Source of the DNA: Streptosporangium album
GTDB lineage: Bacteria; Actinomycetota; Actinomycetes; Streptosporangiales; Streptosporangiaceae
Assembly: GCF_014203795.1 (NCBI RefSeq)
Contig: NZ_JACHJU010000004.1
Span: 434,001-498,000, forward strand
Direction: 5' to 3'
Length of the DNA: 64,000 nt
How positions within the stretch are numbered: position 1 is the stretch's first letter; every line of letters begins with the position of its first letter. Shown here piece after piece: positions 11,356-18,874 of the stretch. The position numbers and the translations under genes were made by a program. The notes beneath the pieces are model-generated. The model had not been told where the DNA came from, made no database searches, and was given only the letters and a program-made list of their open reading frames with translations.

Positions 11356-12207
11356 TCATCGGCCGGGCCGCTCCGCGGGATGCAGGCGGTCGAACAGGGC
11401 CAGCCACTGCCCGGGATGGACCGACGCCATCACCGTGCCCGGCCGCACCTGCGCCGCCTCGAACGCGGCTCCCACCTCGCGGGCCGGGTACCGCATCCTC
11501 AACGAGGCGTCCAGCGAGCCGCCCAGCCCGGCGAAGCCGTACTCGACGAACGCGCGATAGTCGGCCAGCGACTCTTCGGCCAGCAACGCCACAGGTCGCC
11601 GCCCGATGCCCACAATCGCCGAGTCGACCGCCGGAACCGGGCGGAAGCTCTCCCTGCCGACGCGCCCCAGCAGCTCCCAGGAGTACTCCGGCCAGGTCAG
11701 CACGGTCAGCAGGCTCCAGCGACCGAAGTCACCGGTGCGTTTACGCGCGTACTCCAGCTGGGTGACCAGCGTCGCCGAGGTCAGCGAGGGCGCACCCAGA
11801 CACCAGGAGACGATCTTCGATGTGATCGCGTAGGGGACGTTCCCGACGACCGCGAACGGCTCACGGGGAACACGCGCTCCGAGGAAATCTCCCCTGACCA
11901 CCGTGATCCGGCCCTCCCCGCGGGTGCGGGAGGCGAGCCTGCCCGCCAGCCGCGGGTCGATCTCGTAAGTGATGACCTCCTTGCATGTTCCGGCCAGGGC
12001 GAGGGTGAGCACGCCCTCTCCCCCGCCGGGCTCCAGGACCAGCCCGTGCGGCCCGGCGGCCTCGACCACCCGGTTGACCGCATCCGGATCGACCATGAAG
12101 TTCTGCGAGAGGACACGCCTGGCCCGATCACGAGGGGTACGGCCGCCGCCGCTCCCCACCCGCTTCTGGGTGTGTGAATAATTTCCGTGCGCGAAGAACT
12201 GCGCCAC
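11356..12207 (-). CDS. erm: 23S rRNA adenine N6-methyltransferase, Erm family
   Basis: A 283-residue enzyme that would mono- or dimethylate A2058 of 23S rRNA, giving resistance to macrolides, lincosamides and streptogramin B. It shows RRVLSQNFMVDPDAV at the N-terminus, the SAM-binding loop LEPGGGEGVLTLAL, EIDPRLAGRL (acidic residue for the SAM ribose), the catalytic loop GNVPYAITS, and TQLEYARKRTGDFGRWS, close to Erm(E)-type actinomycete enzymes. I chose the GTG at 12207 because AAAGGG lies nine bases before it and the family starts near here; the frame is open further upstream but runs through the regulatory leader. Expression is probably induced through the leader described at 12268-12374. 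Confidence 0.9.
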   Translation of the reverse strand: MAQFFAHGNYSHTQKRVGSGGGRTPRDRARRVLSQNFMVDPDAVNRVVEAAGPHGLVLEPGGGEGVLTLALAGTCKEVITYEIDPRLAGRLASRTRGEGRITVVRGDFLGARVPREPFAVVGNVPYAITSKIVSWCLGAPSLTSATLVTQLEYARKRTGDFGRWSLLTVLTWPEYSWELLGRVGRESFRPVPAVDSAIVGIGRRPVALLAEESLADYRAFVEYGFAGLGGSLDASLRMRYPAREVGAAFEAAQVRPGTVMASVHPGQWLALFDRLHPAERPGR

Positions 12208-12267
12208 AGCTTGTCGCCCTTTCGGGTCCGAGGTGAACAGGTCTCGGAGGCCCTGGGCACGCGCATC

Positions 12268-12332
12268 AGGGACGCGCGGAGAAAAAGCGAGCGTCCCTAG
12301 CGGGCCAGAGGCCGGCTGCTGCGGGGACGCTC
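12268..12332 (-). promoter_or_regulatory. Transcription attenuator with alternative hairpins in the erm leader
   Basis: On the minus strand, GAGCGTCCC (12332-12324, the E-R-P codons of the leader peptide) pairs perfectly with GGGACGCTC (12297-12289), and this stem is followed by GCTTTTT, a textbook intrinsic terminator. The 3' arm can instead pair as AGGGACGC (12298-12291) with GCGTCCCT (12275-12268), putting the U-run in a loop. The two structures exclude each other, so ribosome position on the leader peptide could decide read-through into erm. Confidence 0.8.
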
Positions 12333-12374
12333 CACCATGAGGCCCACCATGAAGGGGGCGGAACACATGCACAT
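12297..12374 (-). CDS. Leader peptide (uORF) of the erm attenuator, 25 residues
   Basis: An ATG at 12374 opens a 25-codon frame starting MCMCSAPFMVGLMV, followed by an arginine- and serine-rich end, and closing with TAG at 12299-12297, the first bases of the terminator's 3' arm. Codons 15-17 (E, R, P) form the 5' arm. Drug-stalled ribosomes would cover that arm and free the antiterminator. The start codon lies seven bases after a -10 hexamer, so the transcript is probably leaderless and the peptide is translated from the first nucleotide. Confidence 0.75.
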   Translation of the reverse strand: MCMCSAPFMVGLMVERPRSSRPLAR

Positions 12375-12381
12375 GCCGTAG

Positions 12382-12419
12382 ACGGTACGGGCCGTCTCGA
12401 CACGCACGCAACTTCTTTT
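12382..12419 (-). promoter_or_regulatory. Promoter of the erm leader, possible WhiB7/WblC-type
   Basis: Reading the minus strand: AAAAGAA (12419-12413), TTGCGT (-35, 12411-12406), an 18-base spacer, TACCGT (-10, 12387-12382), and seven bases to the ATG of the leader peptide. An A-rich block just before the -35 is the arrangement bound by WhiB7/WblC, the actinobacterial activator of ribosome-antibiotic resistance genes. Its identity as such a site is inference. Confidence 0.55.
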
Positions 12420-12527
12420 CCCTCCGTACGGCCCACCCCGCCGGACACAGAGCGTCACAGGGGCGCCGCCGCTACCACCGCCTGGCCGGACCCCCGTACG
12501 AGGCCCCGTGCCCTCACGGCGGCGCGG

Positions 12528-18710: not shown

Positions 18711-18874
18711 GTGCCGATGTGGTTTGTGTCCCCCGGGCCGCAAATTACCGCCTTCACGGAATACCGTTCGGCTGGAGCCGTGTTGTGCCTCTCGCCGAGG
18801 AGGCGACCGCCACATCGGCGCTAAACGTTCCGCCCCGTAGGAGCCCAGGCCTCTGCGGGGCGTTTCTTTTTTTT
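18711..18874 (+). ncRNA. Candidate small structured RNA with its own promoter and terminator
   Basis: A gene-free stretch carries an ordered set of signals. TACAGT at 18701-18706 can serve as a -10 box; about five bases later GTGCCGATGTGG (18711-18722) pairs with CCACATCGGCGC (18810-18821) to give a 12-bp closing stem with one G-U pair. Inside are smaller hairpins, including GCCTCT...GGAGGC around 18787-18804. The transcript would end at the terminator at 18831-18874. There is no open frame with a ribosome binding site. I could not match the conserved core of a riboswitch, SRP RNA, tmRNA, RNase P or 6S RNA; a 6S-like or novel regulatory RNA is possible. Confidence 0.5.
18831..18874 (+). terminator. 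Intrinsic terminator with long U-run
   Basis: CGCCCCG (18831-18837) pairs with CGGGGCG (18856-18862), followed by TTTCTTTTTTTT. This is the most classical intrinsic terminator in the window. It does not follow a protein gene on this strand, which is why a small RNA is proposed. Confidence 0.88.

Follow-up and report, generated by a model that had tools for sequence, protein, structure and literature searches.

A putative WblC-driven, leaderless Arg-X-Arg translational attenuator upstream of erm in Streptosporangium album

Described attenuators and the erm leader

The ermSF gene of Streptomyces fradiae is reportedly controlled by translational attenuation in an actinomycete, ermK is said to be controlled by transcriptional attenuation, and a uORF has reportedly been the subject of a paper on wblC. 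In ErmC-type attenuation, a leader peptide, a drug-dependent stall and four mutually exclusive RNA segments are combined, and the 3:4 hairpin hides the Shine-Dalgarno (SD) sequence (passages of PMC10219788, PMC13410324). In ErmDL, the RLR motif arrests the ribosome with X in the P site (passages of PMC8298421). The WblC promoters of S. coelicolor carry GAAAWY 3 bp before the -35 element, a spacer of 16–19 bp and TANNNT, with transcripts starting 7 or 8 bp past the -10, and an erm(O)-type gene belongs to the WblC regulon (passages of PMC7157823).

The window analyzed here is the whole 64,000-nt (64-kb) stretch of the S. album genome. On its minus strand, a uORF (12374–12297) lies upstream of the erm start codon on a putative single transcript, and the sequence anatomy of this leader, its conservation and its predicted pairings are reported below (Table 1). 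The gene behind the leader, called erm in a first-pass annotation of this DNA, was confirmed by two curated Erm models, NF000337 (343.5 bits; cut-off 320) and NF000499 (245.2 bits; cut-off 212), while its score against the ksgA model, 125.9 bits, was below the 171 of that model. We consider it probable that the leader is a WblC-driven, leaderless, RxR-containing, two-input attenuator that responds to macrolides at the level of erm translation. The uORF and the RNA switch most likely block the resistance protein until a macrolide stalls the ribosome, and the switch probably acts mainly on translation and not mainly on transcription.

As in ErmC-type systems (ermC, ermSF), the window has a leader peptide, four segments and an SD hidden by 3:4, together with a predicted stall. 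In contrast to them, the uORF is leaderless and preceded by a WblC-type promoter, the arrest motif is R-X-R, and segment 2 takes in the last uORF codons and the stop. Arg-X-Arg is common to the ErmDL/+X+ arrest peptides and this leader family, but the leaders mostly have RIR, with RPR in the window, and a conserved RALAR tail. Like the ermK-type and whiB7/wblC attenuators, the window places uORF codons in a terminator-like hairpin that faces a competing antiterminator-like hairpin, whereas in the leaders the U-tract is not conserved and SD sequestration is present. The parts are of known kinds, but their combination, which would bring WblC induction and ribosome arrest at Arg-X-Arg together in one leader, may be new. 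Full-text searches of the open-licence literature, mostly abstracts and passages, returned nothing on an actinobacterial erm preceded by a leaderless uORF.

Table 1. Features of the erm leader and their positions in the window.
Feature	Positions	Strand	Remarks
WblC/WhiB7-like box GAAAAG	12415..12420	minus	3 nt upstream of -35; 5/6 letters match GAAAWY
Promoter	12382..12411	minus	TTGCGT 12411–12406, 18 nt, TACCGT 12387–12382
Leaderless uORF	12297..12374	minus	25 codons, MCMCSAPFMVGLMVERPRSSRPLAR, stop TAG 12299–12297
R16-P17-R18	12321..12329	minus	Arg-X-Arg arrest motif, proposed stall site
Segment 1	12324..12332	minus	GAGCGTCCC, codons 15–17; pairs with segment 2
Segment 2	12289..12310	minus	last uORF codons (CTCTGGCCCGCTAG) and GGGACGCTC; pairs with segment 1 or 3
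T5 tract	12282..12286	minus	possible terminator U-tract or SD partner
Segment 3	12249..12275	minus	GCGTCCCT...GCGCGTGCCCAGGGCC; pairs with segment 2, or with 4 via GCCC/GGG
Segment 4	12216..12232	minus	CTCGGACCCGAAAGGGC; holds erm Shine-Dalgarno GAAAGG
erm	11356..12207	minus	283 aa, GTG start 12207; NCBIfam NF000337, NF000499 above cut-off

Relatives of the leader were taken from 297 genomes of the family, of which 198 match the Erm protein at E <= 1e-25, KsgA-level hits near 1e-30 included. Ninety upstream regions (L006–L096 without L036), comprising 30 loci and 60 stretches, were used. Candidate uORFs were picked by rule in 87 of them, and L092, L094 and L096 yielded none. The picks in L041 and L052 were corrected by hand. 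Five leaders (L034, L057, L061, L086, L089) were dropped for long or odd spacers, despite a Lys/Arg-rich uORF, and L090, L091 and L093 were dropped as too distant. The final set consists of 79 leaders, the window included.

Promoter, leaderless uORF and arrest motif

The promoter, the ATG seven bases past the -10 and the 25-codon peptide of the first-pass annotation were all recovered on the minus strand, and the WblC-like box at 12420–12415, absent from it, was found 5' of the promoter. The trinucleotide AAG separates this box from the -35 element TTGCGT, and the ATG (12374–12372) begins 7 nt past TACCGT. The arrangement of box, 3-nt gap, -35, spacer (18 nt in the window) and TANNNT is that of the WblC/WhiB7 regulon promoters. 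Applied to the window, their 7–8 bp start rule points to the base preceding the ATG or to its A, and this promoter geometry suggests a transcription start on or beside the uORF ATG. The window differs from the regulon promoters in that the start site would be used directly for a leaderless sensor uORF, an arrangement not seen in the passages of the WblC regulon literature covered. The pattern AAAANNNGTTGN{18,22}TANNNTN{5,8}ATG has a single match in the 9.02 Mb genome of the strain, which is the window leader, and 0 in the reversed control. Among the leaders, an AT-rich box with TTG was found by regular expression in 71 of the 79, and the 8 missed by it carry AAAA and GTCGC/ATCGC. A WhiB protein bearing an AT-hook, the mark of WhiB7, is also encoded in the genome of the strain (L145), and the gene for this protein has a similar upstream box, AAAATAAGTTG...TAGGGT, in agreement with the leader box. 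WblC control of the window leader is suggested by these features.

The leaderless uORF proposed in the first-pass annotation is borne out across the relatives. One fixed rule (ATG or GTG 6–8 nt past TANNNT, 12–45 codons, basic-X-basic toward the end) recovers a leaderless uORF from 77 of the 79 leaders. Its hit rate among 1,580 dinucleotide shuffles is 0.38%, and this shuffle rate is the informative part because the 79 had been picked by a similar rule. Arg-X-Arg is present in all 79 leaders. With the place in each peptide picked by a script, the variants are RIR (41), RPR (13), RLR (11), RMR (10), RFR (2), RRR (1) and RSR (1). In the window, the motif lies in V-E-R-P-R at codons 16–18, 15 residues past the start, and in short relatives at codons 8–10. 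The earlier statement that the peptide lacks an RLR-type motif is therefore not supported, and the new stalling code proposed with it is unnecessary, since every leader holds Arg-X-Arg. This is a known macrolide/ketolide arrest motif, by analogy with which drug stalling may be expected at the window RPR.

The tail of the uORF is RALAR in most relatives and RPLAR in the window. The last 18 nt of the 47 RALAR-ending leaders take only 5 forms, whereas the RxR codons of 46 of them take 15 forms for 4 peptides, with both CGN and AGG used (raw leaders, uncorrected for relatedness). The few RALAR forms against the many RxR forms suggest that RxR is maintained for the peptide, and RALAR for the RNA too. 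These dual-use last codons offer a clean case for separating selection on the peptide from selection on the RNA.

Competing hairpins and the predicted switch

On the minus strand, GAGCGTCCC (12332–12324) pairs with GGGACGCTC (12297–12289), which is followed by GC and TTTTT (12286–12282), and AGGGACGC (12298–12291) pairs alternatively with GCGTCCCT (12275–12268). The first hairpin (1:2) has a 9-pair stem at -26.5 kcal/mol; the fold of 12373–12275 beats shuffles by no more than a small margin (z -1.47, equalled by 16 of 200). The competing hairpin (12317–12246) reaches -36.4 kcal/mol (z -3.17) and is equalled by 0 of 200 shuffles. A further hairpin, 3:4 (12258–12216; -18.8 kcal/mol in the fold of 12258–12215), sequesters the erm SD, so that the antiterminator arm, in segment 3 (also written GCGTCCCT...GCGTGCCCAGGGCC), doubles as SD sequestor in a system with a fourth segment. 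The competition of two hairpins for one arm, as described in the first-pass annotation, is supported in the window, and its arms are conserved in relatives; 1:2 and 2:3 were described there as terminator and antiterminator, and the SD-sequestering 3:4 was overlooked. An Rfam scan of the window gave 0 families at the gathering threshold.

Conservation of the peptide and of both arms, which had been put forward as a check, was found among the 79 leaders. In A1 (13 RPR-class leaders), 81.9% of the cells are paired in 1:2 against 25.5–47.7% in slid controls, and 80.8% in 2:3 against 19.9–54.6%. In A2 (31 leaders), the values are 89.4% against 23.9–51.5% for 2:3 and 96.9% against 17.8–52.6% for 3:4, the equivalent of the SD helix. 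No covariation above column shuffles was found in 1:2, 2:3 or 3:4 of A1 and A2, and because the column shuffles reach the observed pairing values, this is conservation without proof by covariation. The absence is attributed to arms that are too conserved and to rows misplaced by MAFFT (L018, L016 and L073 in A1). Across 40 representatives, mean duplex energies were -17.1 against -13.0 in shuffles for 1:2, -34.7 against -24.1 for 2:3 and -22.7 against -12.9 for 3:4. The core duplex between the last 12 uORF nt and 12 nt around the anti-SD was not better than shuffles (-11.34 against -11.15), and species swaps among the 40 made little difference (mean z -0.2 to -0.9). The helix position formed by U of CTG and the base between CCC and GGG is U-A in 55 of the 79 leaders, U-G in 3 and G-C in 1, and in the remaining 20 it is a non-standard pair or not homologous. 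All 10 short-spacer leaders keep CUGGCUCGC/GCGAGCCCAG.

Ribosome positions were then imposed on the folds; for the stalled state, the P site was placed at X of R-X-R, as in ErmDL (passages of PMC8298421). A ribosome stalled at RxR masks segment 1, with segment 2 accessible from ~12310, and one at the uORF stop covers segment 2 to ~12287. In the stalled fold, 66 of the 79 leaders have the anti-SD GCCC paired to upstream sequence in preference to the SD, and in the stop fold the SD is its preferred partner, again in 66. Both halves of the predicted ErmC-type switch occur together in 54 of the 79 leaders and 28 of the 40 representatives, the window included, and the full predicted switch is absent in 25. 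The window values for anti-SD pairing upstream and with the SD are 0.51/0.05 when stalled and 0.00/0.99 at the stop. When the stretch from the ribosome to the anti-SD was shuffled, the stalled result appeared in 37.7% of 395 controls. The ribosome-controlled switch of the first-pass annotation is thus predicted by the folds, and an effect on erm translation would follow from this model.

Two features of the folds qualify the model. The mean SD unpaired probability hardly differs across states (0.26, 0.25 and 0.28) because CCC-GAAA-GGG itself folds into a hairpin of 3 pairs when the switch is open, and SD accessibility was therefore rejected as a simple readout of the switch. With no ribosome, the equilibrium fold is open in 67 of the 79 leaders, and the window is closed if cut before the GTG and open with 15 nt of erm codons added. 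Since the ribosome-free state is mostly open, the model needs translation of the uORF or co-transcriptional folding to shut erm.

It might be argued that WblC control alone matters, the uORF and hairpins being either inert or of use to mRNA stability in general, as the WblC-type box in the leader promoters and the strong precedent of the WblC regulon (passages of PMC7157823) would allow. The position of RxR is conserved, the RALAR codons are frozen, the SD hairpin is conserved and the stalled/stop switch lies above its shuffle control, and we regard this explanation as extremely improbable.

The T5 tract and the proposed mechanism

The first-pass annotation read the leader as a transcription attenuator, in which 1:2 and T5 would end transcription near 12282 except when a stalled ribosome shifts the balance to 2:3. 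In the window, the 9-pair stem of -26.5 kcal/mol has T5 within 2 nt, as an intrinsic terminator with a U-tract would, and among the 9 runs of T5 or longer on both strands of the 64 kb the leader T5 is the one preceded by the most stable fold (-28.1). Precedents exist in ermK of Bacillus and in whiB7/wblC itself, which is described with a uORF and a terminator attenuator (passages of PMC10727445). However, between the uORF stop and the anti-SD, T5 occurs in 1 of the 79 leaders, that of the window, and T4 in 3 (L008, L010, L013); 78 leaders have no T5, and among the 14 same-genus leaders the window alone has it. The 10 short-spacer leaders, moreover, keep 2:3 and 3:4 without the post-stop arm. 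Because T5 is found in a single leader while the SD-sequestering hairpin is conserved, transcription attenuation is unsupported as the general mechanism, and a universal terminator of the leader family was rejected; as the main mechanism, transcription attenuation is unlikely, although some leaders may have terminators lacking a U-tract. A simple terminator scan of the window, with loops limited to 3–8 nt, did not list the leader hairpin. Elsewhere in the window, a T8 run at 18867 on the plus strand, preceded by a stretch folding at -25 kcal/mol, resembles an ordinary terminator.

The window T5 may be a terminator, an SD partner or a chance run in a pyrimidine-rich loop, and a terminator in the window species itself is possible. 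As an extra anti-SD, T5 would pair as CGCUUUUUC x GAAAGGGCG and strengthen the closed translational state, with no terminator involved. The fold of 12331–12205 does pair T5 with the SD region (UCGCUUUUUC with GAAAGGGCGA), 1:2 being formed alongside. This is one fold of one sequence, the pairing is lost once the leader is trimmed to the ribosome edge, and the tract is not conserved, which make such a role very unlikely.

The translational attenuator favored here may operate as follows. WblC/WhiB7 would activate the promoter, and the transcript would begin on or beside the ATG of the leaderless uORF. Without drug, ribosomes would reach the stop and cover segment 2, so that 3:4 pairs and the erm SD is hidden; in the window species, a terminator-like hairpin of 1:2 could at that point arise ahead of T5. 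When a macrolide is present, the ribosome would arrest at R16-P17-R18 and occupy segment 1, segment 2 would be left free, 2:3 would pair and the erm SD would be released. The last uORF codons (RALAR or RPLAR) would double as peptide and RNA arm. If leaderless initiation feeds the sensor, the threshold for erm induction may be set by drugs and stresses whose effects differ between leaderless and SD-led initiation. This species may have added an optional terminator layer. A triple gate, in which WblC is joined by one ribosome stalled at Arg-Pro-Arg that relieves both the species-gained terminator and the conserved SD sequestor, is a tentative proposal that we consider somewhat doubtful; if true, a translational attenuator would have been caught acquiring a transcriptional one via the same RNA segment.

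The leader is widespread in one actinobacterial family and has relatives beyond it. The covariance model R1, which takes only 3:4 as structure and works mostly by sequence, has a single match per genome in 88 of the 297 family genomes, and these places lie before erm when compared by eye with the Erm match list. Outside the family, 6 of 9 loci have a basic-X-basic uORF after a -10-like hexamer and 3 do not, and 2 of the 6 uORFs (L151, L152) end in RALAR. A search for related loci on the genome contigs returned one locus, an archaeal-type methyltransferase, and was uninformative.

Several minor observations were made in the surrounding set. In G208 (L175) and G004 (L176), the R1 match precedes an internally shortened erm, a sign of decay, and since the sequence of L175 differs upstream of mid-uORF, its promoter and start appear lost. 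Nine genomes (G038, G061, G073, G096, G102, G169, G227, G257, G286) have two Erm-like matches each (E <= 1e-25), and in some of them the second copy is without this leader (no uORF was recovered in L096 of G227). Two loci outside the family (L159, L164) have a GTG uORF, VAANNAII...SVRMRRGPGALTGPGSHAR, 7 bases past TANNNT, with an AT-rich box upstream and an erm-like gene downstream. On a cursory look at 40 more distant stretches (L097–L136), many showed a leaderless uORF of another kind, for example MCCFCAI...VVRPRSASLDR. In L109, L111, L120, L127, L128, L130 and L135, this uORF class reads MCCFCAI/MSCCHAI...RPRSASLDR or RLRSARLHR and is located ~450–510 nt before the end of the fetched stretches, upstream of more distant erm genes.
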